From positions 6,958,607 through 7,022,606 of the forward strand of contig NC_060258.1 of NCBI RefSeq assembly GCF_921293095.1: a stretch of 64,000 bases of DNA, given 5' to 3'. This document shows positions 3,575 through 60,976 of the stretch, in pieces. A program made the position numbers and the translations under genes. The stretch is from Ischnura elegans. Lineage: Eukaryota; Arthropoda; Insecta; Odonata; Coenagrionidae. Every line of letters starts with the position of its first letter. Within the stretch, counting starts at the first letter, position 1. The notes under the pieces are model-generated. The model saw nothing but the letters and a program-made list of their open reading frames with translations, was not told the DNA's origin and ran no database searches.

Positions 3575-3742
3575 AGTATCAAAGAAGAGGAGACAGGTGA
3601 TGACAATTTACGGTATTCTACTGACTCACAGGACTGCTTGCAAAGTGCAAATGAAGGCACTTCACAGCTCCCATGTGCATTCCAAACTACTGAAATATAC
3701 ATTCCTGTGTCAGACTGCCAAGAAACGAGACCAGATGCTTTG
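3575..3742 (+). CDS. Gene A linker exon, 56-aa repeat copy 1
   Basis: 168 bases, phase 0 at both ends, between CAG and GTAAGT. It starts SIKEEETGDDN and carries the core TTEIYIPVSDC. It is the most diverged of the three visible copies. The family signature is an acidic start, a CxQ or CIxD pair mid-exon, and (T/R)E(I/V)YIPV near the end. Sixteen bases before it the frame is open back to an ATG at 3,524, but the acceptor and the paralogues favour starting at 3,575. I know of no named domain matching it. Confidence 0.75.
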
Positions 3743-6700
3743 GTAAGTTTTATTCTCACCTACAGTAACACCTGAGTTGTACGACCTTGTGTTGTGTAAA
3801 TTTCTCATCTGTATATCTCTCATATATGGGTTATTCACACTTAATTCATTCATTATTGTAAGAAAGCTCAAATTTACACATAGCATGGAATGAAGTTTTG
3901 TGTTTCAAGAGGCAGGAGTAAAACTGTGATTGAAGATGGATATCATCATATTAATTATATCTATTGTCACTTGTAAGAAGTAGCATAGAATACTAAAGGA
4001 TTTGGTGGATTTTGCCCACCGTAATATAAACCTCATTTTACAGATCTAAGTACATATTGGATCAACTCGTAAGATAAATCATAGAAAACTTAAGCATTTG
4101 GTGGAATATGCTATCAGAAATTTTAACTTCATTTTACAGATCTATTGGCAGCTTGGATCAAACAGTAATTAATATTCAGTATGTGTTTTTAATGCCTAAA
4201 TACCGAAAAATTCACTGGTTAGAGCCTGAATTGAATATTTTGCTTTGTTATGGAATTCTAATAAAAAACTCTTCTTAAAATAATTGGAAACTTTTGGGTT
4301 TTTACTTTACTTTGTGGTAGAATTACTTAGACTCTGGACTTCACTAGGAATCCATAAACAGTTATTTTCTTCACATATAAACATTATTGTTGTCAATTAC
4401 ATAGTAACCTGAGAACATATTTACTTTACTCTAACACAAACAGTTTTTTTTTTTTTTAAACATCAGTAGTCTCATTTCATTAACAATTTCCATTATCTCA
4501 CTATAAGTCAGTGATACATCATCTGTCTCACATCGCATAGCATAGTTCTTGTATCTTGAAGGCGTTCTTAAGTTTACTCTGGGTCTTAAATTTCGTGTGG
4601 TTGAATCTCTTTCTTCATCTCTTACTTCTGGTTCATTTCTTTCTTTATTTCTTGTTTCTTCCCTTTCATTATTTTTTCTCATATCTTCATCTATATCTTC
4701 TTCACTCTCTCTAGATTCTTCTAAATTCTTTTCTTTACTTTCCTCTACTTCTTCTTTTTCCTTGTCTAGATTTTCTATACTATTACAAATTCTAACTCTC
4801 CCAACATCTTGCTGATTTTCACATATATGGCTTTTATTTTTAGCTGGAGATTTTTCAAAAATCACATCCCTAGAGACAAAAACTTGCCTTTTTTCTGGAT
4901 CCCACAATCGGTATGCATTTCTGGCATATCCAATGAAAATACATTCTCTTGATCGATTGTCCATTTTCTTCAAAGGCTTCAAAACTTTTGCATAGGCTTT
5001 GCAACCAAATATCTGAACCCCTTTCAGATTCGGTTTATATCCAAACCACAGTTCCACTGGTGTTCTGTCCACAGTAGTGCTCAGACATCTATTCGTAATG
5101 TATGCTGCGGTTAAAATGGCATCTCCCCACATTTCCTTGGGTAGGTTTGCATCAAATATTAATGATCTAGCTTTTTCAAGAAGTGTACGATTCATTCTTT
5201 CTGCTTTACCATTTAATTGAGGAGTGTAAGGCACTGTATACTCTAGCACAATACCCTTGTTCTTACACCATGACTGTAACTCTAAAGCACAGTACTCTCT
5301 TCCATTGTCACATCGTATCACGCTAACCTTTTTGTTAAATTGATTCTCAACAGAGTTTACAAACTGCTTCAGACATTCAGACACTTCACTCTTATATCTA
5401 ATAAGAAATACTGTACAAAAATGTGAAAAATCATCTATCATAGTAACAAAATATCTTTTACGATCATGAGTCTCAATCTCAAATGGTCCGCATACATCAG
5501 TGTGAATTATTTGTATTATTCTAGTTGCTCTCATTCTTTCTGTTTTAAAAGGAAATCTGGTTTGTTTAGCATTCACACAAACAGCACAAAAATTATTTTC
5601 GTCTATATTAGCAATTTCTTTTGGCACACCATCACATAATGATGCTATTTTTTTAAGACTTTTAAAATTTAAATGGCCCATTTTTCTGTGCCAATCCATA
5701 CCTACATTAACTGTCTGTGTTAACATGGCTTCATCAGTTCCATTGAGATCAACTACAAACATTCCATTTGCTCTTTTCTTACCTTCTATTACAATATTTG
5801 GTTTTGGCATAGGTATTTCACCAGTTAATATTTGAACACTATCTTTAGTAAATAATACGGTTCCATTATTCTCTGTGATTTCAGAAACAGACATTAAATT
5901 TTTAGTAAGTTCCGGTACACACAACACCTCTTTTAATTTACATTTATTTAGATCTAGAGTTCCTACTCCTTTGACTGTCATAGTTGAATCTTTTTTAGCA
6001 ACCTTTGCATTTTCATTGCACTTACGCAAATTTTTAACCATTTCGATGGAATTTACCATGTGTTTCGTTGCGCCACTATCGATCACAAATTCAAAGATAT
6101 TATTATGATTAAGGTTAGCCTCAGAATCCGCAAAAAAAATGCTAATTTATCTTTTCTTGAGTCCCTGTCTCTATACCTTTTTTCATTATTCTGACCCTTA
6201 TTTTTAAAAAACAATTTTTTTCGTCATGATTTGTTTTCTTACATATTTTGCAAGATTTTTCTCGAAAGAAACAGTCCTTTTCATTATGATTTGTGCGTTT
6301 GCATATTGTACACCCTCTTTTAGGACATCTGGATTTTACATGACCTTTTGGGTTTTTACTTTACTTTGTGGTAGAATTACTTAGACTCTGCACTTTGCAT
6401 AAAAACACACTGTATCTATTTTATAATTAATTTTACCGTTTTTGTAATTTGCCGCGAATGATACCACATCTGTTTCGTTTTCCGTCTTCAGCTTCGACTC
6501 TTCTATTTGAAGACGTGCGCAAAGGTCCTCAATTGTTTTATCTGGTCCTCTCACGGAATCCCATGCGCTCGAGAGATGCCGGAAATTGTCTGGCAGGATG
6601 GACATCATCTTCGTCATTATCATGAGATCGTCGACGGGTTGTTTTAGTCCGTTCAGTCTATAAGCAATGTTTTGCAGATTGCTCATGTTTGTCATGACGT

Positions 6701-9700
6701 CCTTCGAACTGTCATATTTGTATGCGTAAAATTCTTGTAGGAGTTGACATATCTGAGTCTCTGTGTCCTTTTCGCATATTAATTTAAGTTTCTGGAACAT
6801 TTCTTTAGCTGTTTTACAGGTCATTATATGGTGGACCACGGATCTATCTATTGTTGAGACTATCCAATATTGGGCCTTGGCGTCTTTCATGTTCCATCTC
6901 CGCGTCTCTTCTTGATTCATATCTTTTTTCTCCTTTAAATCTTCACCTTCAATTACTTCTATCATTTCCTTGGCTCGGAACAGGATTTTAATTTGGAAAG
7001 ACCACATAGAGTAAGTTGTTGTGTCCTTCAATTTTTGTATGTGCGTAGTATCTTCGCTTGACATCGCCATCTCTTTTTTCCGTTTTTTTTCCCTTCTTTT
7101 ATTCTTCAAATTTTCCTTTATTTTTACTGCAATTCTTGCCGCGAGCCCATAACCTTTTGGGTTTTTTACTTTACTTTGTGGTAGAATTACTTAGACTCTG
7201 CACTTCACTAGGAATCCATAAACATTTATTTACTTCACATATATAAACATTATTGTTGTCAATCACATAGTAACCTGAGAACATATTTACTTTACCCTAA
7301 CAGTAGCTATTAGAATATCTTATGGGTGTGGTGTAAAAGGAAGGATGTTGTCCATTTCTAGCTGCAGTTTTTCCCCATCATTGTGGCAGAGCTTGAATAC
7401 TGGTATGTGGTGAGGTTTTGCATGAATGAAGCCATTTTTCAATGCATTCTTATGAGTGCAACTGCTGATCTGTCAAACCATGTAATATTGAATGCAAAAA
7501 ATAATAATCAGATGATTCAATGTCTGAGGAATTAGTTGGGTGCGTTCAGCCTTTGCATTTGAGTGTTTTCAGTTCGGTTTTAATGTTTAATGCTCTAGGC
7601 TTTGTAATGTGAGGTTGAGCATTTCATGCTGTGGAATTACTGTTGAATCATTGTGAACACAATTTCCTTGCTTGACACTAAATTCCCAATGCATGCAATT
7701 CCTTGGAAATGGCTTGGTGGGCAACTTCAAATACAAAGCAGTCTCTTCTTGAGTATGGCATTGATCTTCATTGAGCAATGCCTCCAATTGATTTTCTCTG
7801 GAGGTTTTTGGCCTTTCTTCACATAGACCATTGTCATCATTGAAATGATTGTCTTTGAAGCAATGATACCAATCCTGTAACAGTGTTTCTGTTATAGCAG
7901 TCTCTCGGTTAATTTTTAAAAACTGTATTGTGCTCTTCTCTCAACACTAAGTATCTAATGCCGTGACGTATTCATCATGGTTGTTGAGCAGTTTGTTTAA
8001 CTAATGTCTGAGCTTGAGTCATGATGATTCTGGTATTTCAAAATTGAGCAACAATCAGTGCTATAGCCATCTATTGACAGGCAGTAAGAACTTTTTTTTC
8101 GAGCATAATACATAATTGCTGTGTGATTGGTTTAGCATGTTTTAAGGATAATAATAACAGGGTAATTTAAAAAACCGTTTCATGAAATAGTTTTGGCAGA
8201 GAAGATGATTTTGAGGTCTGTTTTCTTTCTGCATAGATATTGTACCCTGTATTCTCTTCCAGAGTTTATATTTGAGTATTAACAAGAGGTAAGAGAACAT
8301 ATACATTGAAAAGAGAACACATAACAAATACATTGAAAACATGCTCCACTTGTTTTTTCCATCATTCTACTGTTGAGAAAAGAATAAATAGTGATTTTGG
8401 CCTTTTAACATATACTACTACAAAAATGATAATTGCAGAAGCAAATTGAGTGCAAGAATAAGAAACTTGATTAATTCGTTCTCGTAACTGCAAAAAATTG
8501 AATCTTCAATCTCAATTTTGATTTCTCATGATTTGAAAAAAAGGGAAAATGATACATCTGAATAATCTCCATTCTCTGTCCTGTATTTTGCTGTGAAGGG
8601 GCAGCTTCCATGGCCCCTTAGATATTTAGAAAAGACACTGGGTGTACTTGGAATATCAGAAATCTTCCTGTTAATTTTTTTTTCAGTTTGCGCTGTAGCT
8701 TTTCAGTATTTGATTAACAGGCATGCAGAGACGAGGTTATTTTTATGTGATATCAGAGGCAATATGTGTAACATTCTTCTTCTAAATGCTTTGAGTATCC
8801 CATATATGTGTGTTTGAAGAGATAAAGGTTTATCCCTGTTACTTTTTCTGCAGAGTTTTGAAGGAGGAGGGGCAGATGATGAGGAGTCGGATCCTTGTGT
8901 GGAGACTAAGGACTGCATTCAAGATGTCATTGAAAACACTTCAGAGTTTGCATCCTCAGCCCAAATGACTGAAGTATACATTCCTGTGCCAGACTGCCTA
9001 TTGCCCAGGGACTATAATTTGGTAAGTTATATTCTCATTCATAGTGAAAACTGAGTCTAATCACCTTCAGTTTTACAAATTTCTCGAGGGTGTGTCTGTT
9101 ATAAATTTAAGAATTTTGGTGGGAAGTCACTAGCATAATGAAACCTTCAGATGTAGTTCTTTCTATTAGTGACACATGAGGCAGGAAGTGGAACCTCACA
9201 AATGTTTTTTCATGCAGGTCAATAGCAGTTGTACAGCATTGATAATCTTTTGACAGAAATGTCTCCTATCCCGTAGAGTATAATTTTGGATACCCTTGTC
9301 AAATCTCTGTTCAAGCCATTAGTGGTGGCTATAACAAGGCTGCCACATGATTGCCCTCTATTTGTTCAAGCCATCATCCTCCATTGTTTCAACTGAGGAA
9401 CCAGCATAAAATATTGTGGATCCTTTTTATAAGCCTAGGTGAAGAAATGATCCAGACAATTCAATGTACTGTGGAACCTCGATATGTCGTTCCCACCGTT
9501 GTGCCCTTGCTGTAAGTGGCCAATACTCTCATTCTAACCATGTGATGTTGGTGGCATAGATCTCCCCTCCCTAGTTGAGCGTTTAAATGCTGGAGTTTGA
9601 TATGTGAGTCGCAAGAATCTCATGAGTATTTTGGCCAGCTGCAATGGTCTCACATAAAACAGGAGTTTTCATTATCGATTGAGGGAATTATTGTTTTGCC

Positions 9701-12700
9701 TTTATTGAGTGATGCCCATTATTCTCTTCTAGTGTTGTTGAGGATATAATTTATTTATCACTGTGGCTTTGTCTGCAGAGTTTTGAAGGAGGAGGGGCAG
9801 TTGATGACAATTTGGGGCCTTGTGTGGAGACTACGGACTGCATTCAAGACGAGATTGAAAACAATTCACAGCCCACATGCTCAGCCCAAACCACTGAAAT
9901 ATACATTCCTGTGCCAGATTGCCTTCTACCCAGGGATGACAAGTTGGTAAGTTTTATTCTTATACTCAGTGAAACCTTAAGTGAACCACCTTCAGTTGTA
10001 CAAATTTCTTGGTTGCTTGAAGAAAGAGGGCGTGTCTGTCGTGAATATAAGTATTTTTATGGGAAGTCGCTCACCATTATGCAACCTTCAGTTGTTGGAC
10101 TGGTCCAGTTGTAATCTATGAGGCAAAAAGCCATACCACACAAATCCTTATTTATGCAAGTCAATATTAGTTGTACATCACTTCTAATCTGCTGAAAAAA
10201 GTGCCTCTTATCCTGCGGAGTAGCCATTGGTAGTGGCTAAAACTAGACTGTCTCATGATTGCCCTCGTATTTGTTCCAGCTATCTTCCTCCTTTAATTCT
10301 ACTACGGAATTAGCATAAATTTTTTTGACACCTCTTTATAAGCCTGGGTAAAGAAAAGATGAAAAATTCAATGTGCACTGGAACCTCGACCTATCGTTCC
10401 CACTGTTATGCCCCTACTGTAAGTGATCATAACTCTCATTCAGTGTGCTCTTGGTCATCTAGCTCCCTCTCCCTATTTGGACATTTATATTCTAGACTTT
10501 GATCTGTGAGCTGCAAGAATCTCACGAGTATTTTGCCCATCTGGAGTGGTGCCAATTAAAAGAGGAGTTTTCATTATCAAATGAGGTTATTAATATTTTG
10601 CTTTTATTGAGTGATGCCCATTATCCTTTTCTAGTTTCATATAAAAGATGAGAATGAAGATCACCTCAGCGAGGAGAATAATCCCATGCTGTACACGACC
10701 GATCCAGCTGGAAGTGATGCCTCTGACCCATTGGCCACTGATGACCTGGTGAGTGTACTTTTGCCAAATGTAATTTAATTTACCTATGGCACATTGCCAT
10801 TCCTTTATAGATTATTCCCAACACCCCTTAGCAGGAATCTACACCATTTTGCCTCGCCTTTGCCAACAACAGTCATGAACCACTACAGAAGAAGTTTCAT
10901 CTTTGAATCATTAAAATAAAATGTAATGAACTGATTTGGTGTATTTTGCCAAACTGACCACTCAACTTTGCTCTCTGTGCAAGTAAGCTCTCTGTCATCT
11001 CGACACTGAGCAGTCATTTGTTATGTGATCACACAAACACAGTTTCACTTCCGTTTACCATGGAGTGGAAGGGGGGATGTTAGGAATTGAGAGTTAAACT
11101 GAGTACTTTTGACTTAGGTACAGTGAAACAGATTGACTGTGACATCATGATGTAGCTGCTAGCCAAATTCAACTACATAACTTGCATTCCTTATGAGGGA
11201 TTGATGTTCATAGGAATCAAAATGTTGCAGATTTGGATTTTGTGATGAAAGTGAAGAGGAATTTATAGTGTAGGCTAGGGATTCAACCTTCTTTGCCATT
11301 TTTGAATGGGGTGTTTGACGTTTGCAATGCAAGTTGATTGCCAAAAGATATAAATTTTTAGAGATGTGAACTGATTTTTATTTACTCTGACTGAATTTTC
11401 TGCTGCTGTTGTTCATAGTCTTGAAACCCTTCCACTTTTAATGAAATATTAAGATTTTGCTTATTCTTAGATTTTTATCATTTTTTTATAAGTCGGTGCT
11501 CTTGGCCTTGTTCCCTTTTGGAAATTAATTTTAATGATCGGGAAGGTTCACATCTTAAAAAGCTATTTATTTCCAAGATTTTCCCAATGAAGTTGTTTCT
11601 CCTTCATACTGTGGCTATTATAAGATTATATGGGAAGGTATAAGGACTTTATTGATGGAATCGCAACGGTTCATTAAGTTAATCTGTTTTCTATAAAGAA
11701 GCCAAAATCATTCATCAGGAATAATTTTTTTTTCTACAGAGATCATGTAATTCAAGCTTTGTTCATGATCACTTTTTATTTGTTAACCAATTGATTAAAA
11801 TGGGTATCCATCGTTGTCCCTCTTTCCAATAGAGTGATCCGGTAAGATACAAGTGCTCTCCTGTTAAAGAAGATCAGATTAGCGATGATGAAGAAGGACA
11901 TATACTCAATGATTGCACTGATGGTGTCACAAGCAAACTGATACATCAAGACTCTTTTGATCAGGTAATACTATTAATGAACTTTATTTTGTACTGCATC
12001 AACATCATAATTTAACAAACCTAAAATTGGTTTCATACAGCCCTCAATTCCGGTCTAACATCTGCTTATCTTTTCATGCATATGGTCTTCTTTTTTTATA
12101 TCCTTGATAACCTGGCCTGTGAAAAACATGCAGAGCCATTCCTTTCCCTTCTTCCTGTCCACCTCTCCTTTTCTTTGTCAGTCTATTGTCTTTGAGGACA
12201 TCATATCTCATTATGTGGGCGATAAAGTTAAGGTTGTCAGAAGACTTCTTTTCTCCCATTCTGCTACATACTTCCTTGTTACTTTACCAATTTCTTTATG
12301 GTCAACGAGCAACACATTCCAAAGCTTCCACTCTGAACTTTTCTGCAGCTGTAAATTTTGAAGCCTTTCTAACATTTCCACTCTGATTCTGATTACTTTT
12401 TCATGGGAGATTAGGGGAATCATATTCCTAAAGGTTTTTATTTCTAACTAAAATAGAGATGTTTCCAGGGCTTCCACTCAACCTTGAAAACCGTTAATAA
12501 GCCGTGAATTTTGTCATAAAACATGAAAAAATCTCTCACACTTCATTGTAGAACTAAGATTGACTGATCAAAAGAAAAATTGATATGTTGATTATATTTC
12601 AAGGTCAGTAATGCATTTATCTGCACATGTATATTCGAAGTACAAGTATAGGTCCGTGTGCCATGACGACACATTGATGATAAGCCTGCACCAAATCTGG

Positions 12701-21700: not shown

Positions 21701-24700
21701 TAAATTCCTTTTAACCCTCTGTTCCGGCGGTTTTTTAAACATCACTCACTTAGCAAACCTTCCATTCGAAAAAATGCCATAACTTATTTAAAAATTAAAA
21801 TTTTTTCATGCAATTTTGAATGCAATACTCACAAATAATTTCAGAATCTTTTTCTCGTGTGATACTCCATGAAACACTTTCCCTTGTGGAGTGGAATGCC
21901 GCAAGTTGAGCACACATATCTTGTCTCTTTTCTAATTTTTCTCGTAGCGCACATTTTGCATCTTCTTGTGTGATATTTTTTCGTCCCCTTCCCCACAATA
22001 GGAACGAGATGGTGTTTGCTAAGGTCTCTCGATAAGCGCTGTGGGTGATCTCTTGAAGGGGCCCGTCCTGTTGGCTTATCATCGCAGTCATCGTCCGAGA
22101 ATGATTCACTCGACTCCTGCCTACTCGCTGCCCACTCTTTGGCGGTCTGGAGCAAAAAGCTTTTGAATCGAATGCCATTATTTTTGTTTAGAGTTTTATA
22201 AACTCTGAAAGCATTAAAAAGAGCGCAATTTATTAGCCAAAGCACGACTTTCTTCGACCATTTCATTGTTTTTCTCATGATGGAGTAATAGGATAAGTAC
22301 ATATCCGCCCTGTCAACACCTTTCATGCACTCATTGTATTTTAGAATACAAGTGGGTTTTCTGATTGCCTGTCCTGTAATCCTATCTTTTACCTTTGAGT
22401 TACCCATGCTGGCGTTATGAACAGTGCTAATCATTCTTACTTCCCTCTTGTCTTTCCAAACCACTAGTAACACCTCACCTTTACGAGAGAACGTGCTCTG
22501 TCCCTTTTTCAAAGTTTTTGCCTCGCTCTTCAACGTGGGAGGGAGTCCCCGATTTGGTCTTATGGTTCCACACACTCTTACTTTGTTATCTAAGAGCAGT
22601 TCTGCAATTTTCACACTATTATAATAGTTGTCTTGATAGACATGATGCCAAAGATTGAGATGTGGCTTCAAAAGAGACAAGATGGTTTGTTCTAATTTTT
22701 TCCCCTCGGCTGAATAAATTTCTAAATTACTAATGTAGCCAGAATCACTTTCACAAACCATTCGAACTAGTAAACCATATTTTACAATTTTTGCAGGATT
22801 ATAGGTCTTGATTTTCAATCTTCCTCTCCATGGAATCATGGCTTCATCAAGTGACAATTCCTGCTTTGGTTTATACACATTTTGAAAATTTTCAACTAAG
22901 TATTCCAGGGTGGGTCTTATTTTATATAGTCTATCCGAAGTATCTGAGAATGCTTCGTTATCACTAAAATGCCACGCTTTCCATATCTGCTCAAATCTGT
23001 TTCTCGTCAGTAGCTCTCTAAATATTTTTGTTTCGATGAAAGGATCTGTACTCCAATACTCCTTCAGTGTATCTTTCCTCACTTGACCCATCAGAATCAA
23101 AATAGAAAAGAATTTTTTCATTTCAGCCATGGTTATGTTTGACCACTTCCCTGTTTTTGGCGATTCTTTGTATTTATGCTTATTTTGACAGTAATACAAA
23201 TTGGATTGATGGCACATCATTTCAAAAAAATCATTACCAAGAAATAGTGAGACTACGTCAAGGATGTAATTGGAATTTTCTGGTAATCGCTTCACTCCAG
23301 GTTGGCCCAAAAATTGCTCTAAATGTCTCTCAAAATCTATTTTTTCCCATGAAGTAGAACTTCCTGCCAAAGTATTGTCTTCATTTTCACTCGCATCGGA
23401 GTCACTTTCACTGATAACTAGAGGAATACGTTTTCTAGTTTTCATATTCACCACAACATCAGAATCGCTTTCACTTTCGTCGTTATCTTCGTCATACCCT
23501 AATGGTACATCTGACAAATCATCAGCACACAAGTCTAACAAAATTTCTTCTTCATCCAAAGTGTTGTCCTTCCGATGTGATGCCATAATATGGAATATTC
23601 TTATGAGTGGTTTTTAGAGCACAAATGCGTGCAAACCTTCAAGCGAGAAAAACTTGACACCAAATGTTCTATTCACTTGGACTCAGGGAAACACCAACTG
23701 CTCTTGACACATTAGGAGAGGAAACTAACCCAGAGGCAGGAAACAAGTAAGAGAGCATCATCTCCCTCCATGGCATGGACGAAAAGAACTGGGGGCCTCA
23801 TTGTGAGTCCCCCAGTTCCTTTTGTCGAGAATGTTTATGTTGACGGAAAAGAGCAGTCCACTTGCTGAGAGTGCATCTCGAAGAAGCGGCGATGAAGATA
23901 AGGGTCAAACTCGCTAGATAAAACAAGGCCATGTGGATAAACTCTTTGGAAATAATAAGCCAAGTGTGTGGGGTAACTCAAGGAAAACGATAAATAAGAA
24001 GCCAACGCTGGTAAGAAGAGGAACGCCGATTCTGGGTGGAGGTGTTGAGAATGGAAATATGTGCCTATTCGGGCGTAATGCCTTTGGTTTAAACATAGTT
24101 AAAAAGCTAATGTTTAGAATATAACTTTACCCAATCAAACTTAATGATGTATCAATTCATTATTAATAACGAACAACAACTGATAACGTTCTAACGAATA
24201 CGGATTGCACGCTTTAAAATTGTTTTGGTTGACGCGCCTAAATGACGAGAATCTTCGTCATCCGTCCGGAACGTTCGGGAAAAAAATGACGAGAATTCTC
24301 GCCATCCGTACGCAACGTGTTAAGTGCTTGAAAATGACTCTTCACAGAAAAGGCTTGTAACTAATTCTGTCTAGGCAAATGTCCCAAAACTGGATATCGG
24401 AATTCAATCAAATTTTGCAATTCACACATGAAATTTTTTCGTACTTTCATTCTACTTCCTTTTTTACTGAAACCTGTCATTTGTTCAATATTTCAATAAA
24501 TTTCGCTGAAAATTTTATATTTATGCGTGGATCGACACCAGGTCCTCTAGGTGACAACTGGAAACCTTAAGCACTAGACTAATGCTCACCCTTTGCAGAG
24601 TGGCTCTTATACATGAATACATTTGACCAGCAAATGTTTAACTGGATTTTTAGCTTATAATATTGGTTATAAATGTAACCCCATATGGAGGCTGATTCGA

Positions 24701-27700
24701 AGACAACTCACAATGGACTATAACACAACAAAATTTGGTTGAGTTCTTCGACCAGGTTTTTGGACACTCCACTTGTGAAGGATGTAGCATCTGAGTTTGT
24801 CATCCTTATATACTTTCTTTAGTTTATGTTAACAGTTCTGATTGATATTTTAATCTGGTTGGCAAATTTCTATCAAAATTTTCTTAATGTTAAAGCAATA
24901 TTTGGAGTCATGTGCATTAGGGCGGATCGCAAAAATCGATTTTTTTCAAATCCATCTGGCCCAATGAAAAAAACGTTGTGGGACCGATCAATAATAAGGC
25001 CTGAAAAATTTGAGACCTCTACGTGAACCCGACCCTCGCTCAAATGCAATTTAGGGGGGGAAGGTCAAAATTCGAAAAATATAAACTTTTATGGTCTTTC
25101 CCTATAGATTTTGCCGAGTTACTGCCCCTATAGGACAAAAATTTCGTGCATTTTGACGTATCTGCCACCGTTTAGCCACAAAATGCCTAATTTGAGTCCG
25201 CGCCCGCGAAGAAAATATTACAACGCCCGCGCAGCGTCGCGGATACAAGAGCTGCTAGCCGATCCCGTCCCCTCCCCGCTCGCTTCTCCCCCTCCCATGC
25301 CTCGAATGCAGCAAAATTCATCTCGCGTGTACTGCTAGGAGGGCGATTATCTTTGATAATATAAATCGGAAGATGGTAGAAGGTAAAAAACGGCGCGTAG
25401 TGAGACGACTTGTCCCTTATTTGGCGCCTCGTCGGCGTTAAACAAATCGATGTTACCAACGTTTAGAGAAGTGATGAAATATTATTAGATCTGCGAACGC
25501 AGGAAAGGAGCCTGCGGTCTATGAAGACGCCTTTCGAGTGGCTATAAGGTGTGGGAACTTAGGATATACATTTCTATTCCGGTATTGTCCGACAGCTGTG
25601 TCTAAATGGATTTTGGGTGAAGGCCGCTCGCGTCCCCTCCCCGCTCGCCTCTTCCACGCCCCAAATGCACCAAAATTCACACCAAGTGCGTCGTTCTTCG
25701 TTAGTCTTACTAATATTTGATGTTTCAGCTTCGTCCGGTGAGGAACAATCACGAAAGAATTACTCAAGTATCTGCTTTCCAGTCTGTATTTCTTATATCA
25801 GTGTCATTCCTCGTCTTTCGCTGCTTTCAACAAACTTTTGGTGAATTCTTTGACGAATATTTCGTCTGCATGATGTATAATAAAAAGAATATTTAACTTC
25901 AAATTTGGACGTTCACAAATAGATTTTTAATTTCCATAGCGCTAATCTCAGATATAGCCGAAGGAACCGGAGTCTCTCTCCAATATATCATCAGCGTGTA
26001 GTCCTTTACGTCGATATTAAAATCCAGCAATTAAAAAAATCTCGGATTTGTCGCCAAACGCATCCTTGCATCAACGCAAATTGGGTCCCTAGATTACCCT
26101 CCCAATGTTTATGTCGCAAATCCAAGTCAGCATAGTGCAATTAGCAAATAGACCACTGTAAGGGATGAAATACGGATTTAATGCTTTCCCGACGAATGAT
26201 GTGGGTAAACTCTCTTCGGGATTCAACAAAATTTATCTCTTAGGATGAGCCCCAAGTCGGAGATTGAAATGAAAAATTAACCCGGTGGAAATCCCGAGAT
26301 GAGTTCGCCCACACTGCAAGGGATGTTGGAATTATGCTTATAGCAAAGGGATGATGCCTCCTTTTTTAATTTTGTGCATCTACTTTTCACTCCGAAAGGA
26401 ATCGATAATCGCAGATTTTATAACTTTTGCTAATCCTCCGACGGGGGGGGGGAAACCTCCAAAAGTGGGACCCTGTTTCTTCAAGTAACACCACACATTT
26501 CCCTCTAAACTTGTATTGATAAGTCCTCTTGCCTTTTTTATCAGACAAGAGTATAGTCTTTCGTTCCAATAAAATGGAGCCCTTTGATGAAACCTCTCTT
26601 TTTTATCCACAGTAGGCAGGGCTGGGCAAAATACAGGCCGAGGAGTATTTGAAATGCAAAATACCAAAAACCTTGGACTTCTGTATTTGAAATACAAAAT
26701 AGTATTTTAAATACTTTTTAGAATACAAAATACACTTGTAAGGAAACGAGATTTTTCACTATAAAAATTATCAAATGTTGCTCTCTATGAATGAATTATT
26801 CCCCTTGAGGAATACAAGTTTTTCAAAAAGTTTGGCTGACAGAGCTCCCCTCACAGGGGTATGGATAAACCCAGCAAGTGAAAATAGTCTTTCCACTGGT
26901 GAAGATGAGCATAGGCATGTATTAAATCTGATGAACATTTTCTAAATATTCGGATAATTTTGTAAACTCGACAGCGATTTGTCAGTAGGTAGCATCGTTT
27001 TCTGTGTACGTAAGTGATTCTGGTACACTAGCTTTGATGTATCTTACGAAGTTATGACTTTTGCGTCGGCTAAAGTTGCGGGAACGATCATTGCTTTGCT
27101 TGGTTCTTGCATATACCTCTATCACAGTTGGCAGACGCATTTTCCCCGAAGAAGTTCCAATTTGAGTTTATAGTCCTTAATGTTTATTTTATGAGGAAAA
27201 TAGAGATACAACTCGGCTAATTTCATTTTCTTCGAATGAATTGATGAAGAAAATTTTTGGTACTATTTTCCCGTACAAGAATTGACGATGTTGACTCATC
27301 GATCTCCGATTATTCCATTTTTTTCCTCAGTTGTCGAGTTTTTTAAGGATTCAATCGAGCAGCCATTATCTTTCTTTTCGTCAGCTTGTCTTTCAAACTA
27401 CTTCTTCATTGGGGAAAACTTATGCTCCTCCTTGCACTTACACGCAAAAATATCGCAAAATTAAAAAAGTTCCTTTAAAATTGTTTGAGTTTTATACTTC
27501 AATAAAACCCTACTTTTTGACTATTCTAATTTTCCGTAAGTTATAGTACTTCCTGTGGTACCGTTTAATCCATTTAGTCACATTCACAATAGAAGAGAAG
27601 CGCGTCACCATAGTTCGCACACCTTTATAGCCACTCGAGAGGCATCTTCGTAGACCGCAGGCTCCTTTCCTGCGTTCGCAGATCTAAAAATATTTCATCA

Positions 27701-33939: not shown

Positions 33940-33943
33940 TTAA

Positions 33944-35561: not shown

Positions 35562-35565
35562 TTAA

Positions 35566-37539: not shown

Positions 37540-37926
37540 TATATCACATACAAATTCCAAGTTTTTCAAATTACAGTTAATGTAACTGAGTTCTGTTAAG
37601 ATCTTATGCAAACTCCAAACATGAAGTAAAGTGAATCTAATAGAATTCTGTTAACAGTATACACAAATTCCAAGCTTTTAAAACAGCAATGAATCTAATC
37701 AAGTTCTATTAACATCGTATACAAATTCCAATCATTTCAAATTACAATGAATCTACTTAAGTTCTATTAAAGTACAGTGATTGTAATAGAGTTCTATGAA
37801 CAGTGTACACAAATTCTAAGCATTTATAATAACCGAATCTAATCAAGTTCTATTAAAGTGAAGTGAATCTAATAGAATTCTATGAACAGTATATACAAAT
37901 TGTAAGCATTTAAAATAACTGAACCT
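37540..37926. repeat. Diverged edge of the satellite
   Basis: Degenerate copies of the same monomer as the main array: GTGAATCTAATAGAATTCT, ACAAATTCCAAGC and AATCAAGTTCTATTAA recur with many differences. Diverged monomers at an array edge next to a homogeneous centre are usual for satellites. Confidence 0.75.
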
Positions 37927-37962
37927 AAAATAAGTGTATGCCGCATGTCGTAATGGAGATAG

Positions 37963-38109: not shown

Positions 38110-38740
38110 ACCTCTCTAATTGAATGTTCGATCCGTCTGAGAGACCCACAGAATCTATCTTCAGAAATTAGTAAGCTGAAATCCATACTACGTCTTTATG
38201 GTTACGACAACAGAGCTATATCCCGAAATTTTTGAGAGATTATCAACAAGGACAACAGGAACAATTCCCAAGACGCAGAAGACATCATTGACCAAAAGAA
38301 AGCCTTCCTCCCCTACGTGAAAGGAACGACTCATATGATCGGGAACATCATCCAGAAATTCGACATAAGAGCCATTTTTAAACCACACGCCCAAGTACGA
38401 CACCTCGGAAATGCCAAGGATAGGACGCCACTGCAAATTGAAGGAGTATACGAAAACCCCTGCCGATCGTGTGACAAGAAATACATCAGGGAAACCGGAC
38501 GAACAGTCAAAACTCGGATAGAAAAACACAAGCGGGCCATTTGACTGGGTTACACTTCAAAGTAAGCCGCAGCGGAGCACGAAGCCAGTGGACATGCGAT
38601 CGACTTCGAAAAATCAAAAGTCATCGCGAGGGTGAAACATTTTAAAGCCTGACTCATCCGCGAGGCCATAGAAATAAATAAAAACAAGAACAACTACAAT
38701 AGAGATACCGGATTAAGAATCAGCAATACTTGGAACCCAG
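38110..38740 (+). pseudogene. Penelope RT tail and GIY-YIG endonuclease remnant
   Basis: Translation shows FLPYVKGTTHMIGNIIQKF, IFKPHAQVRHL, GVYENPC.SCDKKYIRETGR with RIEKHKR, then HEASGHAIDF and REAIEI..NKNNYNRDTG. This is the Penelope GIY-YIG domain order. Here the YIG position reads YIR, and there are at least three stop codons (for example after KHKRAI). It is inactive. Confidence 0.82.
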
Positions 38741-38895: not shown

Positions 38896-38945
38896 CTATC
38901 TCCATTACGACACGCGGCATAAACCCGTATGTGACTTATTTTAAT

Positions 38946-39000: not shown

Positions 39001-40790
39001 CCCCTCAAGCGCGGCAGGCATTTAATTAAATCCCATCTCAGCGGCCGGATGAGATTTAAAAATCTTCGCCTTTTTGGTATACTATCATTCAATAATTTAT
39101 ATCTTTCATAATATACGATCAGTATCGTTGAAAATTTTTGTAAACTTGTGTAATATAATGCGCTACTATATAATAATTTTTCGAGCGATTTGAAAAAATA
39201 TTTATTGTTTTATGTATCTCTTTTTATGAACTAATGAATAAATTTTCAATTTTGAAAGATTTTTATTTGGTTTCGAAGAAGATACGAGATCTCTAACATT
39301 CCATGCATTTAAAAAATACAATTACATGATGTAATTTAGTTATTTGGGGTTGAAAATTTCATAACAGATTGGATACTTTCGATAGGATTACCCGTTTCGC
39401 CTACTTACTTGAAAATTTACCACTCCGCCCACTTCTCTGACTTTGTTCCATTATTACCGTATCATTTCATATAGGTAATCACATGCTAATGTTTCAAACG
39501 TCAATAAGCAAATATTCAAATGATTTACCTTAGAAAATCTGCTCTGACATGATTTGAAGCAATCCAAACACAATCCCACTGCACATTATTCACAACAGTA
39601 CACGCAAACTCTTCATTTCCCATGTTACGCACAAACTGCACACCTCCTTTGAGACTTTGATTTCTTCCCAGCTGCAGGAATTGTCTTTAGGAAATCAATT
39701 TTTGTGAGTCTTGGTACTAAATTGTGTAATGAGTGACGGCCAAGTCCAAACAGTTCGTATGACGTTGGATATTTCAAAAATATTTTTTCGCCCAATGGCA
39801 CGCGAAATGATAAGTCAAATTTTTATACGTGTTTTTCCTGTGAACAACATATGAATTTAGGACTGCCTCATTCAATAGTCTCCTAAATAACTTCATACAT
39901 CACTTGTAATGGCGTTTTCTTTCCATTACGTACAAATGCAATAACAGGTTCTTGAAATTCACCCCACCAATGATTTCACTATAGCCTAACACACAAACAG
40001 ACTTCCGAGTCTCTTTTTTGCCTTTCAATACTATTCCCATTTCGTAGGATCCCCAATTATAAAAAAAATACCACACACAGGAAGTACACCCAATGAGAAT
40101 TTCAGCACACTGCCTGAACGAACACCACACAGCATGAATGACTCTGGTGGACTGGGTGGACTGAAGCTCGTGGTTTAGAAGCTCCCTCAAGAGACAAGAA
40201 AATATCTCGAAGGGGCCCTGGTATACGCTGACTGTTTAGATGGAATCTTATCTTCGTTGTTTACTGTCCAGAAAAAAAATAAAAAAATAAATGCAGAGCG
40301 AAGCACATGGCCCCTTCGCTTAGGACGCTTAGGACTAACGAGGCGGACCAAACACACTTGGGGCTCGAGGTGACGACAAACAAGGAGAAGACGGAGAGAT
40401 GGCATTGAGCTTAGAAGATACCGTATCTCAAGCTAAAGTAGCTGAACCTTCTAGACGTCTCTTAATCAGAATAGGCGGAAGTTTTCATGATAGAACAGCT
40501 GAAAGAAGGCGTTAAGTTTTTGGACCGAAGTCGTCAAGGCGCTGGTTTAAAACGGAATTTTATCGAAGCATTTTTTAAAAATCTTGAAGGCATAAAACCG
40601 CTACGAATATTTTATTGGAAAGGAAAAACATTTCTTCAAAAGCTAGAGTAATTAGTTTTAATTTAACATACAATATCTGGCGGAGAAAAAATATTATAAA
40701 CAGTAGGTCAGGAAGCGTACTGGGTACGCATGACGGCGGCATACGAAATTTAAAGGGCGCGTACTGGGTACGCATGACGGCGTTGAGGGG
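39001..40790 (-). mobile_element. Decayed piggyBac element inside the satellite
   Basis: TTAA at 38,997-39,000 and 40,791-40,794. The tips are CCCCTCAA and its complement TTGAGGGG. Satellite continues directly on both sides. The right end repeats GCGTACTGGGTACGCATGAC twice. The minus strand holds a broken transposase C-terminus. Confidence 0.82.
39540..40190 (-). pseudogene. piggyBac transposase C-terminal remnant
   Basis: Minus strand reads VCVLGYSEIIGGVNFKNLLL then YVMERKRHYK, matching the family's Y...MGGVD...... YS..RK..KW. The catalytic Asp after GGV is Asn here. Next come MKLFRRLLNE and, at ~39,550-39,660, a Cys-rich end (RRCAVC, VYCCE, LCLDCF) with in-frame stops. Confidence 0.72.
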
Positions 40791-40794
40791 TTAA

Positions 40795-42130
40795 AGTACT
40801 GTGAATCTAATAGAACTCTATTAACAGTATACACAAATTCCAAGCATTTAAAACAGCAATGAATCTAATCAAGTTCTATTAAAGTACAATGAATCTAATA
40901 GAACTCTATCAACAGTATACACAAATTCCAAGCATTTAAAACAGCAATGAATCTAATCAAGTTCTATTAAAGTACAATGAATCTAATAGAACTCTATTAA
41001 CAGTATACACAAATTCCAAGAATTTAAAACAGCAATGAATCTAATCAAGTTCTATTAAAGTGCAGTGAATCTAATAGGACTCTATCAACAGTATACACAA
41101 ATTCCAAGCATTTAAAACAGCAATGAATCTAATCAAGTTCTATTAAAGTACAATGAATCTAATAGAACTCTATTAACAGTATACACAAATTCCAAGAATT
41201 TAAAACAGCAATGAATCTAATCAAGTTCTATTAAAGTACTATGAATCTAATAGGACTCTATCAACAGTATACACAAATTCCAAGCATTTAAAACAGCAAT
41301 GAATCTAATCAAGTTCTATTAAAGTACAATGAATCTAATAGAACTCTATTAACAGTATACACAAATTCCAAGAATTTAAAACAGCAATGAATCTAATCAA
41401 GTTCTATTAAAGTGCAGTGAATCTAATAGGACTCTATCAACAGTATACACAAATTCCAAGCATTTAAAACAGCAATGAATCTAATCAAGTTCTATTAAAG
41501 TACAATGAATCTAATAGAACTCTATTAACAGTATACACAAATTCCAAGAATTTAAAACAGCAATGAATCTAATCAAGTTCTATTAAAGTGCAGTGAATCT
41601 AATAGGACTCTATCAACAGTATACACAAATTCCAAGCATTTAAAACAGCAATGAATCTAATCAAGTTCTATTAAAGTACAATGAATCTAATAGAACTCTA
41701 TTAACAGTATACACAAATTCCAAGAATTTAAAACAGCAATGAATCTAATCAAGTTCTATTAAAGTGCAGTGAATCTAATAGGACTCTATCAACAGTATAC
41801 ACAAATTCCAAGCATTTAAAACAGCAATGAATCTAATCAAGTTCTATTAAAGTACAATGAATCTAATAGAACTCTATTAACAGTATACACAAATTCCAAG
41901 AATTTAAAACAGCAATGAATCTAATCAAGTTCTATTAAAGTACTATGAATCTAATAGGACTCTATCAACAGTATACACAAATTCCAAGCATTTAAAACAG
42001 CAATGAATCTAATCAAGTTCTATTAAAGTACAATGAATCTAATAGAACTCTATTAACAGTATACACAAATTCCAAGAATTTAAAACAGCAATGAATCTAA
42101 TCAAGTTCTATTAAAGTGCAGTGAATCTAA
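40795..42130. repeat. Homogeneous satellite array, 88-base monomers, 176-base higher-order unit
   Basis: About 15 monomers. Two alternating types differ at fixed sites: AGAACTCTATTAAC with CCAAGAATTT, versus AGGACTCTATCAAC with CCAAGCATTT. AGGACTCT recurs at 41,076 and 41,252, exactly 176 bases apart, and onward to ~41,955. The first monomers (40,795-40,985) do not follow the alternation. Each monomer contains two related halves starting TGAATCTAAT, and AATAGAACTCTATT is nearly palindromic. Confidence 0.93.
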
Positions 42131-42245
42131 TAGAACTATGAACAGTATACACCAATGCCCAGCGTTTAAAACGGCAATGAATCTAATCAAGTTCCATTAA
42201 CATCGCATACAAATTCCAAACATTTTAAATTACAATGATTCTAAT
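42131..42245. repeat. Diverged right edge of the satellite
   Basis: Degenerate monomer that runs into the last codons and stop of the DUF4806 gene. Confidence 0.7.
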
Positions 42246-44706
42246 CGAGGTTGAGCATCCTTCGCTTGCTTCCTCCTGTCCCTTGCACCAGCCTGCCGCA
42301 GCCACTCTGCCACTGCCTTTCCAACCTCTTTTCTAGAGTGGTTGGCCAAACTTGGTCTCCCCTGTATCACTTCTGAAATGAAAAAAGAATTCAGTGCCAT
42401 AAAATTACCACACACAACATCTTGTTCTCACTAGGCTGACAAGTCAAAACCCAATGGCAACAAGATAAACAAGAGTGCAACCATAAAGAAACAAGGATTC
42501 TACCATTGTGAACTTTTGAAAACTAAATATATATTTGCATTTGAAAACCACCTTCACAAGTCCAAACAATATACAACAATTTAAGATCATGAGATATAAT
42601 TCATATAATATTTCCATGAGATGTGTCACTTTTTAATTGAAAGTGAAGGTAAATGAAGTTATCTTATGGTTAAAAATGACATTACATAGTACTCTAATAA
42701 CTTTAATGTTATTAATTAAAGGTGAAAGAAAATGCCATGACCCAATCCAAATATTGAATACCACAACTTGACATTTGGATGATTGCTCCACAGAAGTTAT
42801 TAGTTTACACTGATTTCACATTAACTCCTTTATGAACTGAGAACAGCAGAAAACAATGCAGTGTGAGCAAAATAAACCTGCTGAAAACTAATGAGGTGAA
42901 AAAAATTCATTGGGTTTAAATATAAATGCCAATGCATTACTTACCAAATATCAATTTATCAAGCCTAGAATCTTTGAAGCTAAATTTATTCCGGGATGGG
43001 ACTCCCTTATAAGTAAAACATTTCCCCAAAGCATCCGTCATTGCATAGTACAATATCCCATTGACGGCAGTCACCAGTGAAGCCCCACCCTGGATCTTCA
43101 ATACCCCTTTCTGGAAAGTGAAGGGATCGTTAGACATAGAAGTGAGAGCAATAGCTAAACAAGCTGTCATACAGGAAAATCATCTCCTCAACTTACCACT
43201 AACTCCCTGAATGCCACGTCTTTCAGATCATTCTCCATTACTTCATAGTCCTCGACAGTCCTCAACGGGAAATTCAGTTCAACATCTGGAACCCCTTGAA
43301 AATGAGAAGGTCTTTCTTTCAGGTTGTTCACTGCTGCAACCAGTGATTGTGTCGTCTCGAGTAGGAGAACATTAGTTGTCTCCACTCTTTTTAGCAAAAC
43401 GTCAATCAAACCTGATTTAAAAGAAAAGATGCACTTAAAGCAATTTAATTTAAAACTTCCACATAATTTAAAGAATACAGTTGAGTACTTACGTTTATTT
43501 TCCTTGCAGCCACAGTTGCATGCCCCACCACTGGAAAATTTATCTGAAATACAAAATAAGTTTGAATGGAACACTAAGCAGAAGGAAGAGAATAGAAATC
43601 TCATTATGTCCAAGGAAAGCATAAAATATACTGGCTTAATATTTGAGTAGACTTATGACTACGCAGTTAGACATTTGCTTCTATGAAGATAAAATATTTA
43701 CTTCACTCCACCGCCTATGAGGCCAGAAAATGAATATTAGAATGAGAAAACATGACTAACATAACTAACTTCATAGAAACAACCAATACTGATTAGTAGT
43801 ATTTGCAAAATTACAAAAATGAAACCATGTTATGCACTGAATCCAACTCTGAAAACAAATTTGTGAATTACCAACCTAAAGAGGTACTGGTATCAGCATT
43901 AATGGCTGAAGTACAGCTTGTAGAGGGCCCTTGACTCTCCATAAAAATTGCAGCAGCTTCTGAAGTCCTTACATTATGCGAAACGAGCACAGATTTTTGT
44001 CTTGGTGTGGTTTCTATTACACCATGGGAATGAATATTATATACAAAGCATTATATACCATCACGTATAAATGCAAAATCACAAAGCAGTCAATAAGCAT
44101 AACAAAGAACCATAGTTAATACTTCACCTTTAACCATCTTTGGAGGAGATGGCATTTTCCTCCTCGGGCAATGATCACTATCATCATCACTCTCATACTT
44201 TGCCCTATTCCCTCTTTGACCTCGTCCAAGGACCTCATCGGCATCCACATCAGAGGTATCAATGGCTACTAACTCCAGCTCTCTGGCCTTCGCGTATGAA
44301 TCTAAGTGAAGAATTTTACAGGTTATAATCTTTCATGCGAAAATAATTAGATAAGAATGACAGTGGAAATCATGACAAAACCATAAACAAATTTGACACT
44401 GTACTAAAATGAATTCCCTGAGAGTTATGCCAAAATTCTCAACTAATAACAAGATTCCAAGAATAACCAAATTTGCTCACCACAAACACTCTTAGGAAAT
44501 TTTCTAACCCTGAACTTACTCCAAGATGGGTGTGACAGTGCATGGCTGGCAATGATGAAGATAATCTGCCTATCAGTCATTCCACTAGGGTAGCAATACA
44601 TCATGGTACCCTTACTCTCCCACAGCCACGTAGTAGGCACTGCCTTGCAATCTGGCATGTCACCCTCATTGGCCGGTATGAACTCTACCACAACCCAACT
44701 ATCCAT
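42230..44706 (-). CDS. DUF4806-domain protein (complete seven-exon gene)
   Basis: Exons 44481-44706, 44128-44301, 43876-44013, 43493-43543, 43197-43411, 42945-43110 and 42230-42372 all have GT-AG borders and matching phases. The CDS is 1,113 bases, 370 residues. The start ATG at 44,706 is preceded by AGAA. Residues 1-75 (MDSWVVVEFIP..., CYP, WSKFRVRKFPKSVC) resemble the N-terminal module often found with DUF4806 in insects. A charged, Asp-rich linker follows, with a small CNCGC cluster (~187). The DUF4806 region runs from ~244 to 355 (FPLRTVED, LVTAVNGIL, KFSFKDSRL, WLRQA). The molecular role of the family is not established, and such genes are often multicopy and linked to mobile DNA. It sits where the finger exon of gene B would be expected. 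Confidence 0.85.
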
Positions 44707-53442: not shown

Positions 53443-53562
53443 CCAGTCATCTGTTGCCAATGGGTCTTAGGCATCAGTCGAAATTAAGGCTGGATCTGTT
53501 GTCTTCATCAGAGAATAATTACCTTTACTGAGAGGGTCTTCGTTCTCCTCTTTAAGATTAAA
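53443..53562 (-). pseudogene. Gene B exon matching gene A exon 4, with stop codon
   Basis: Starts FNLKEENEDPLSKGN and ends DPLATDDW. Codon 32 is TAA (53,467-53,469), where gene A has TCT. Confidence 0.78.
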
Positions 53563-54528: not shown

Positions 54529-54696
54529 CAGCATATTAGTTCCGGATTGATGGGAGTCTGGCACAGGAATGTATATTTCAGTTGTTTGGACCAAGCCAGT
54601 GAGATGTGAGGTGCCTTGCATCACATCTTGAATGCAGTCTGTTGTCTCAGTAGAAGACCCCAACTTGTCATCAGCTGCCTCATCCCCTTGGATACT
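54529..54696 (-). pseudogene. Gene B 56-aa repeat exon
   Basis: 168 bases, open, starts SIQGDEAADDKLGSS and carries QTTEIYIPVPDSHQ. It is closer to the gene C copy than to those of gene A. Confidence 0.8.
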
Positions 54697-57087: not shown

Positions 57088-57225
57088 CCTAAAGTAATCA
57101 CTCCCAGGAAATTTTCCCAGTTTTTCGTCCGATTCTAAACATATCTTTTTGAAAACACTGAATCCCGTGAGCTTCTTCAGACATACTGGACACAGGATGG
57201 TAGGCAGGCCATCTCCCACAGCAAC
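57088..57225 (-). pseudogene. Gene B ZAD exon 2
   Basis: 46 codons, phase 0/0, VAVGDGLPTILCPVCLKKL... with CPVC as the second zinc-binding pair of the ZAD, ending before GTGAGT. Matches gene C 59,861-59,998. Confidence 0.85.
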
Positions 57226-57339
57226 CTAATATACCAATCAACACGCTATACATTAAAAGAATCTGAAATTATACTCATAACACAGAATAAAGAAATCAAT
57301 ATGAAATAGAAAATTGATAACAGGTATCGTGCTACTTAC

Positions 57340-58548
57340 TTCCAAACCGAACAAACCATGCATGGCATCCTTGACAGTTACTCCGAAAGCCACGTTTGAA
57401 GTGAATATGTTGGGTGCTTTCCAATCGCGTATCTGCGCTGATCTGTTTTAAACTGTTTAGCTCAGAGCGTGTTCCAATCGCAGCTGTGACGTCATCTGCG
57501 CTAAACAGATGGGAACACACCCAGCACCGTCGTTCGTCTGCGCTAGCAGACAAAACTTGTGATGGCGGGAAAATATATTGGTGACGGAAAATGAATGCAT
57601 GAATTCCACCATCTCAAAGATACGTATGATGATCATTTGAGAATAATATAAACACTAATTTCATCTATATGTGTCTTACATAAGTTTAATTAAGGTCGTA
57701 ATTTGGGAAATATAATAATATCTTCGTCAAACGTAATGATTGATATAACGCATGAGCAAAGATCGATAGCAAGAGGAGGCTAGTAGATTTTCTAGAGTAA
57801 TTGTCCTTATCAAAAAAATTAGAAATGGAGAATGTAAGCTATTTAACTAAAATGTTATAATGCTTAGATTCTAAGCAGATTTATTTCATTAGCTTACATG
57901 GATAGCGGGCGTATTATATACCAAATTTCCTTTAACGTTCATGTGGCGTTAATTGCATTCCATTAACTGAAATTCAGTACCGCAAAATCACTATAGAATC
58001 GGCAGATTTATGATGCGGTGTTAGCACTTTTTACGGCTTTTCCTGCGTGATATGGATGTAAGTTGTACATGTATCTCAATCTAGAAATGCGAAATGAAGT
58101 ATAACTGGTATAACCATGTTCTTCTTCCATGGTATAACTGCCGGCACTAGCAGTTCGGGAGAGGTAATTATTATAAGTAGCGATAGTTCCATTATTTTCT
58201 TTCAATTAATACTTAATAGTGCTTTAACTAAATACAAAATGAAATATACGAACATTTATCATCCTTCTTCAATAATAATGTGGCGAAGGTCAGTTCAAAA
58301 GCTACCGGTCATTTGAACATTCAACTTTTGCCGCCGATCGGTCCACACACCAGCGCAGATGCGTTCCAATCGTCTGTTTCAGTGTGCGCTAGTGTGTTTC
58401 AATCTGTTGCGATGTGAGCTAGTCTGCGCAAGGTGATTGGAAAGCACCCGTTGTAATAATAGTCATTTTTCTTCATGCAAAGTCTGCACTGGGTACCCTC
58501 GTAACTCCTTTCAGAAGACTCCGAATAATTCCCTGGTAAAGCACTCAT
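57340..58548 (-). pseudogene. Gene B ZAD exon 1, split by a transposon
   Basis: From the ATG at 58,548 the frame reads MSALPGNYSESSERSYEG, then CRLCMKKNDYYYN up to 58,450. After the insert it resumes NIFTSNVAFGVTVKDAMHGL to the GTAAGT donor at 57,339. GTGAAAACATGAGT around the start is shared with gene C, which supports this start. The first zinc pair CRLC lies before the insertion. Confidence 0.85.
57412..58449. mobile_element. 1,038-base non-autonomous DNA transposon in a coding exon
   Basis: Inverted ends GGGTGCTTTCCAATC. Three-base duplication GTT (AAC on the coding strand) at 57,409-57,411 and 58,450-58,452. Repeats of (G/T)TTCCAATC(G/A) near both ends look like subterminal transposase sites. 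No transposase. Superfamily not assigned. Confidence 0.88.
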
Positions 58549-59584: not shown

Positions 59585-59746
59585 ATGAGTCGTACCACCG
59601 GTATTTTCAAGTCAGAAAGGAGTTCAAAGAGTGACCTTTGCAGACTTTGTAGGAAGAGTACTAGTGTGTATTACAACATATTTACTTCTAATATAGCATG
59701 TAAAATAACTGTGAAGGAAGCCCTGCATGATTTAGTCGGTTTACAA
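59585..59746 (+). CDS. Gene C ZAD exon 1
   Basis: 54 codons from MSRTTGIFKSERSSK to DLVGLQ before GTAAGT. It holds the first Cys pair. Eight or more residues around YYNIFTSN are identical to gene B. Confidence 0.85.
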
Positions 59747-60976
59747 GTAAGTGGCACATTACATTTTCTCGATTTTGTTGAAATGGAGATTACTTCTTTT
59801 CGGGTTATGCAGGATAATTCCGAATTCCTCTGACGTATATGTTATTTATTGCTATCTCAGGTTGCTGTGGGAGATGGCCTGCCCAATACCATGTGTCCAC
59901 TATGTTTGAAAAAACTCTCGGAATTCAGTGTTTTCAAGAAGATTTGCTTGGAATCAAACACAGTTCTGAGAACATTTTCGCCTAGAAATTACGGCAGGGT
60001 GAGTACTTAACGTTTTTTCTCATTTGCAGACTTCAGCGATTTTAGGTTACAATATATGGTTTTTGTCGACTTCAGTAAGAAATGCACAAAGAAAATTATT
60101 TGCGGACTGAATATTAATATCGCAAATTGGTAAGGATTAACTCAATATGGTAATAGATAAATCGCTTGGTGACACAATTGGAGTTCACAATACAACACAA
60201 GTATTATAGTTTAACTGCATTAGGACATGAAATCCAGTATGAACTATGAAGGCACTCATATTAACAATCAGAAGTTAAGTAAGCATATGTCTATCTACAG
60301 TAACAGGGCATGAATGGCTTCGTATATGGTCTATGGACAAGTGTAAGTGCAACGAGTTCATTTTCCAGCTAGGGGTTTTCCCTATCTATTAATCCGTGGC
60401 AAGGCACTATTTATGATCCAGTATGTGTTTCAGTGGCGACAACTAAAGAAATTTTGTTTTGTGGTAAACTTCAGTGTGCTCTAAACAATGATACCCTGTG
60501 AAGTGGGGCGTTAACATTCATCATCGATAAACTGAAAAGGGCAATCTACCCTGTATGCTATACCACAATCCTTCAGTATTTGATTGACAATACTTCAATA
60601 TGTGAACTGATTATACCAAGTGTCTTCCTGCCTAGTTTGGTTTCAGCAGCTATTTAGCTTTTGAGTAATGGATTAAGAGACGCATCTCAATTTTTACGCA
60701 ATAGCTTAGATATCCCACTAAAAATCCTATTTCATCATTATTAGGAGTATGCTTCAATTGTTGACTTCGAAGGAGGTGAATTCCTTATTACTGTTACCCT
60801 CTCCACAGAGTATCCAAGGAAAAGAGGCAGCTGATGAGAAGTTGGGGACTTCTGCTGAGACTAATGGCTGCATTAGAGATGTTATTGAAGGCACCTCACA
60901 TCTCACTTTCTCACCCCAAAGGACTGAAATATACATTCCTGTGCTAGACTCCCAACAACCTGAGGCTAATATCTTG
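59585..60976 (+). CDS. Gene C: ZAD-family protein, first three coding exons (3' part outside window)
   Basis: Exons 59585-59746, 59861-59998 and 60809-60976, all phase 0 with GT-AG borders, 156 codons. The ZAD spans exons 1-2: CRLC (residues 19-22), then VYYNIFTSN and an amphipathic segment, and CPLC with FSVFKKICLES in exon 2. ZADs bind one zinc through four Cys and mediate dimerisation in insect C2H2 factors. Exon 3 is the 56-aa acidic repeat with RTEIYIPVLDS. No stop or splice defect. By analogy with A, further linker exons and a finger array should follow after 64,000. Confidence 0.85.
59861..59998 (+). CDS. Gene C ZAD exon 2
   Basis: 46 codons, VAVGDGLPNTMCPLCLKKL..., second Cys pair, ends NYGR before GTGAGT. 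Confidence 0.87.
59999..60808. other. Gene C intron 2
   Basis: Nothing recognised. Confidence 0.45.
60809..60976 (+). CDS. Gene C 56-aa repeat exon
   Basis: 168 bases, starts SIQGKEAADEKLGTS, ends EANIL before GTAAGT. The fifth visible member of this exon family in the window. Confidence 0.82.

Follow-up and report, generated by a model that had tools for sequence, protein, structure and literature searches.

Duplicated 168-base linker exons with a conserved core peptide in ZAD-type zinc-finger genes of Ischnura elegans

Five paralogous exons of 168 bases lie in a 64,000-nucleotide stretch of the Ischnura elegans genome (NC_060258.1, positions 6,958,607 to 7,022,606; the whole stretch is referred to as the window, 37% GC), in what reads as a cluster of C2H2 zinc-finger genes with a zinc finger-associated domain (ZAD). 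Across these exons, here called copies A to E, selection keeps the reading frame open and retains the core QxTE(I/V)YIPVxD, and little else, as shown statistically for this locus only. The exons and their seven-residue cores are located as follows (window positions).

3575-3742, + strand: linker exon copy A, 168 nt, phase 0/0; core TEIYIPV at 3689-3709
8854-9021, + strand: linker exon copy B, 168 nt, phase 0/0; core TEVYIPV at 8968-8988
9779-9946, + strand: linker exon copy C, 168 nt, phase 0/0; core TEIYIPV at 9893-9913
54529-54696, - strand: linker exon copy D, 168 nt, phase 0/0; core TEIYIPV at 54562-54582
60809-60976, + strand: linker exon copy E, 168 nt, phase 0/0; core TEIYIPV at 60923-60943

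Coordinates, splice sites and open frames bear out the first-pass annotation of this DNA, which had described five exons of exactly 168 nt in phase 0/0: boundaries, length and phase are shared, and one frame is open across all 56 codons in each copy. The borders read CAG^AGT...(T/C)TG^GTAAG(T/C), with a pyrimidine-rich stretch 5′ of the CAG in all five cases. No convincing sixth copy emerged when the window was searched with protein and DNA profiles of the exon (next-best E-values 1.1 and 0.15). The exon is acidic, as had been noted (9–14 D/E vs. 1–4 K/R residues per copy), and at 13 of its 56 positions all copies have the same amino acid; eight of these positions (Q37, T39, E40, Y42, I43, P44, V45 and D47) fall within the core or close to it. 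With eleven residues following it, the core TE(I/V)YIPV (residues 39–45) is internal, which corrects the earlier statement that the exons end in it. Likewise, of the originally proposed consensus (T/R)E(I/V)YIPV, the part E(I/V)YIPV is kept in all five copies, whereas the T/R alternation is not found: T39 is invariant, and the variation (T, M or R) falls on position 38, just before the core.

The core is conserved above its surroundings, in agreement with the annotation, as judged by both neutral simulations and a ranking of 21-mers. Among all 21-mers from –60 to +110, the core scored best, with 20 of 21 invariant columns, followed by the donor region with 15 of 21. A core with at most one variable column arose in none of 5000 neutral runs on either of two trees, and permuting the exon's own columns yielded p = 5e-5. 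Its sole change is I to V, and the adjacent D47 harbors a silent change, both expected under protein-level selection. As for the reading frame, all five copies stayed open in 0.2% of 5000 neutral runs on the tree from exon plus flanks; with the shorter tree of the exon, the figure was 0.56%. These simulations used a single rate for all sites and generated 65% and 56% variable columns, compared with 53% observed.

Searches for a described counterpart were negative, as the first-pass annotation had anticipated in knowing of no named domain for the exon. None of the five copies matched Pfam or NCBIfam (the latter a library of prokaryote families), and neither the exon profile nor the core peptide had a match in the PDB. 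Pattern matches in IMG/VR (1) and GTDB genomes (13) included no confirmed relative; as these are viral and prokaryote contigs, the result is little informative. Our literature searches found no occurrence of TEIYIPV, EIYIPV, EVYIPV or YIPVPD, no work on exon duplication in insect ZAD zinc-finger genes, and none joining ZAD, CP190, disorder and a conserved motif. The one paper in these searches to combine 'zinc finger-associated domain' with 'short linear motif' concerns translation components in the nucleus. AlphaFold2, run on a shallow alignment of five sequences, modeled the linker exon without secondary structure (mean pLDDT 61.6, pTM 0.20), with successive block means of 49, 52, 54, 76, 80 and 57; the two highest correspond to residues 31–40 and 41–50, which hold the core. 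Such a model suits a flexible linker that is locally ordered at the core. It is also consistent with the disorder that the annotation had assumed, short of proving it from five sequences.

The hosts resemble insect ZAD-C2H2 proteins (ZAD-ZNF) in their N-terminal ZAD (Pfam zf-AD), acidic linker, nearby C2H2 array and arrangement as a local gene cluster; they differ in the repeated 168-base linker exon with its conserved core. Linkers of this family were described, in the portion of PMC7655104 accessible to us, as lacking discernible structural motifs. According to the available text of PMC8618245, stretches in the linker of the fly ZAD protein Pita have been proposed to bind the groove of the CP190 BTB domain. 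The CP190-BTB-binding regions of Pita, CG31365, dCTCF and Su(Hw), as far as they are described in the accessible parts of PMC8618245 and PMC7983404, are short hydrophobic beta-prone stretches among polar residues within an unstructured region, and often number two per protein, comparable to the repeated core here. No common sequence motif is described for them in those parts, in contrast to the one precise core that recurs in our exons. The putative HP1a site PxVxL in the linker of Oddjob is another short conserved motif of a ZAD-ZNF linker, and Oddjob's matters for localization (PMC7655104, accessible text).

We favor, with somewhat less than even confidence, the explanation that the acidic, flexible linker of these ZAD-ZNF proteins includes a gene- and exon-duplicated exon carrying a beta-strand-like docking peptide under selection. 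The five segments would be coding exons of C2H2 transcription-factor genes, encoding part of the acidic linker that follows the N-terminal ZAD. Within a flexible, disordered linker, the hydrophobic I-Y-I-P-V among acidic and polar residues would act as a short docking peptide, with TE(I/V)YIPV adding as a beta strand into the groove of a partner, by analogy with the Pita linker and the CP190 BTB groove. As the analogy is mechanistic, CP190 would be one candidate partner only. Dimers formed through the ZAD would display two docking peptides, and genes with at least two exon copies would display more; owing to phase 0/0, the number of peptides might change, or copies might be swapped by alternative splicing, without a frameshift. 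A bolder version, which we regard as improbable, sees the exon as a docking-motif cassette in one ZAD-ZNF lineage, with the number or choice of TE(I/V)YIPV motifs per protein altered through exon duplication and loss, such that binding valency could evolve apart from DNA-binding specificity. If such a linker exon, open to in-frame copying, encodes a defined and conserved peptide, this would offer a handle for finding the linker's partner.

Several observations speak against a docking peptide. All conservation results come from five copies at one locus of one genome. Gene D, host of copy D, is taken as a broken, decaying copy because its first ZAD exon is split by an insertion and its next linker exon has an in-frame TAA. 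Taken by itself, the core was not predicted to form a strand by AlphaFold2. The PxVxL ligand of the HP1 chromoshadow domain is absent from the five linker exons, IYIPVPD providing no fit by eye. In the accessible text of PMC8618245, the CP190-binding stretches are conserved in Drosophila and not in other insects, and of the C2H2 proteins tested there in pull-downs, two (the ZAD protein CG31365, and CG4730) hardly responded to mutations of the groove. At the level of the exon, pairwise ratios of nonsynonymous to synonymous divergence (dN/dS; Nei-Gojobori) range from 0.51 to 1.10 over the ten pairs, and variable columns are spread evenly over codon positions (30/29/30). For orientation, dN/dS is 0.31 between the ZAD pieces of genes D and E, and 0.10 in the first 24 codons of the next linker exon (B vs. 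D), where silent sites are near saturation. In the five-way alignment, 47% of exon columns are invariant (mean pairwise identity 72%), with 43% before and 30% after the core; the intron from +7 to +60 shows 43% (70%), and that from –60 to –13 shows 19% (57%). Outside the core, exon conservation thus equals that of the 54 downstream intron bases past the donor consensus (43% vs. 43%) and exceeds that of the upstream intron. Judged by these intron-like values and the dN/dS range, constraint on most of the linker exon is loose. No copy contains an indel, but the D/E intron beside the exon is nearly as similar and as gap-free (2 gap columns in 480), so for D and E an indel-free exon does not in itself demonstrate coding.

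The core is nearly invariant at the nucleotide level as well (20 of 21 columns, third positions included), which would also be expected if these 21 bases were kept as an RNA or DNA signal, e.g. a splicing enhancer within the exon, located 33 bases from the donor, with the peptide as a by-product. All six core codons with an invariant amino acid are nucleotide-invariant, which has a probability of 0.0065 given the amino acids (0.028 with the silent rate set to 0.7 of the block rate), and conservation extends to the donor side of the intron, as seen in the 15 of 21 columns and the 43% of invariant columns at +7 to +60. However, the one variable core column represents a conservative amino-acid change, and 5 of 7 invariant-amino-acid codons outside the core are likewise nucleotide-invariant, an unremarkable number (P = 0.25–0.47), so at silent sites the core does not clearly stand out. 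We consider such a signal unlikely; should it account for the conservation, it would caution against reading motifs from paralogue alignments alone. Equally doubtful to us is that gene conversion or a young separate duplication homogenized the block, leaving the core identical by chance and devoid of special function. Consistent with such homogenization, D and E share a 480-base block, introns included, whose 60-base windows are 78–85% identical (73% and 68% in the last two) with 2 gap columns, as opposed to 59–71% and many gaps in the windows at 60033-60539; their synonymous divergence is 0.28 in the linker exon vs. 0.71 in the ZAD, and selection outside the core is low. This D/E pattern is compatible with both inverted-copy homogenization and nucleotide constraint. 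Uniform homogenization, on the other hand, would not single out 21 bases, as the neutral runs (0 of 5000 per tree) and the permutation (5e-5) indicate the core to be. Finally, we see a rather small chance that the tandem copies are mutually exclusive alternative exons, one per transcript, yielding linker isoforms. Copies B and C agree with the available description of such exons as adjoining copies of equal length and phase (168/168 nt, 0/0), sit in tandem units 73.6% identical to each other, and have copy A upstream. Their length is a multiple of three, though, meaning that serial inclusion would preserve the frame too, and mutually exclusive splicing alone leaves the core unexplained; it can hold together with the docking peptide.

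Judging from alignments within the window, the linker exons multiplied through gene duplication and, at one place, through tandem duplication of an exon with its intron. Copies B and C arose by the latter route: two units of ~924 bases (8808-9733 and 9732-10635, + strand), each an exon with its intron, form a tandem duplication (8808-10635), the second unit stopping where the next exon (10635-10748) starts. This is an actual instance of the copying to which a phase 0/0 exon had been predicted to be open without a change of frame. A match between bases 4-390 of the window and the sequence directly 3′ of B and C suggests a further linker exon copy, probably ~60–70 bases before the window start. 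Between copies A and B, a Copia-type long terminal repeat element occupies 4288-7302, with integrase and related domains (Pfam) and ends that are 94% identical.

The remaining predicted exons of the host genes are listed below.

59585-59746, + strand: ZAD exon 1 of gene E, phase 0 donor
59861-59998, + strand: ZAD exon 2 of gene E, phase 0
57340-58548, - strand: ZAD exon 1 of gene D, split; coding 58548-58450 and 57411-57340, insertion 57412-58449
57088-57225, - strand: ZAD exon 2 of gene D
53443-53562, - strand: next linker exon of gene D, with in-frame TAA
10635-10748, + strand: next linker exon, 114 nt, phase 0/0, FHIKDENED...TDDL; homologue in gene D
29144-30384, + strand: finger exon with 12 C2H2 fingers; acceptor 29144 most likely

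The two exons 5′ of copy E encode the ZAD of gene E (Pfam zf-AD, 5.4e-13, 49.4 bits at a cut-off of 28). Its best sequence match in the PDB was 7pok (LD15650p, 5e-05), and weaker matches included Grauzone 1pzw (0.051) and E6 proteins; we take 7pok and 1pzw to be ZAD structures. A Pfam scan of two of the three + frames of 53–64 kb returned no match, but gene E's ZAD exons are read in the third frame, and the result is given no weight. Gene E runs past the window end and lies head to head with gene D; in both, the linker exon is 3′ of the ZAD. For gene D, the part of the ZAD after the insertion matches zf-AD at the cut-off (2.6e-6, 28 bits). The insertion measures 1038 bases and is DNA-transposon-like, with an AAC target duplication, 15-base terminal inverted repeats (GGGTGCTTTCCAATC) and many stops in all three - strand frames. 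No finger array was found for gene D, for which there is one isolated - strand finger pattern at 39508 and an empty Pfam scan at 44–54 kb, whose sensitivity for a ZAD interrupted by introns is uncertain. In the region homologous to gene D, long inverted repeats (24910-25612 and 27567-28263; 705 aligned bases at 95%, 608 of them at 99%) lie ~2 kb apart, a probable fold-back or long terminal-inverted-repeat element.

We infer that copies A, B and C are parts of one gene, to which the finger exon would belong. The 12 fingers span 29371-30357 on the + strand, and homology with gene D continues to 28812, with the finger exon after that. Acceptor 29144 and exon 10635-10748 differ in phase, so the gene model must lack at least one exon. 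Codon-position bias between the two paralogous introns flagged six stretches, of which the one at 10635 was followed up and accepted as an exon; those at 12811, 13241, 17212, 18203 and 18448 are candidates from the bias signal. Neither Pfam, whose sensitivity for an intron-split ZAD is uncertain, nor tblastn detected a ZAD 5′ of A–C in the window, and this gene may start outside it; with the window's own ZAD pieces as queries (E 0.1), tblastn returned D, E and a stop-containing match at 16517 (E 0.022). The association of the motif with a ZAD, which the first-pass annotation had suggested checking, is therefore seen for copies D and E (2 of 5), while for A–C no ZAD was found upstream in the window. 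By predicted gene content, the hosts form a local cluster of ZAD-type C2H2 genes, and because its zinc-finger genes carry ZADs the window reads as insect-type.

Other elements were observed in the window. A piggyBac-type transposase frame of 590 residues is open at 21841-23613 on the - strand (Pfam DDE_Tnp_1_7, 2.1e-84). A tandem array of an 88-base unit extends over 40703-42258 (16.0 copies, 94% matches); a second array, diverged from it, lies ~3 kb away (37511-37944). The frame at 38236-38544 (+) resembles what is presumably part of a Penelope-like element. Upstream of copy A, a weak MGA_dom match interrupted by a stop (2781-2892, +; 2.3e-5, below the Pfam cut-off) follows an open frame of 222 residues at 2009-2677 that had no Pfam match above the cut-off; the region 2009-2892 is perhaps a decayed MGA-related gene.

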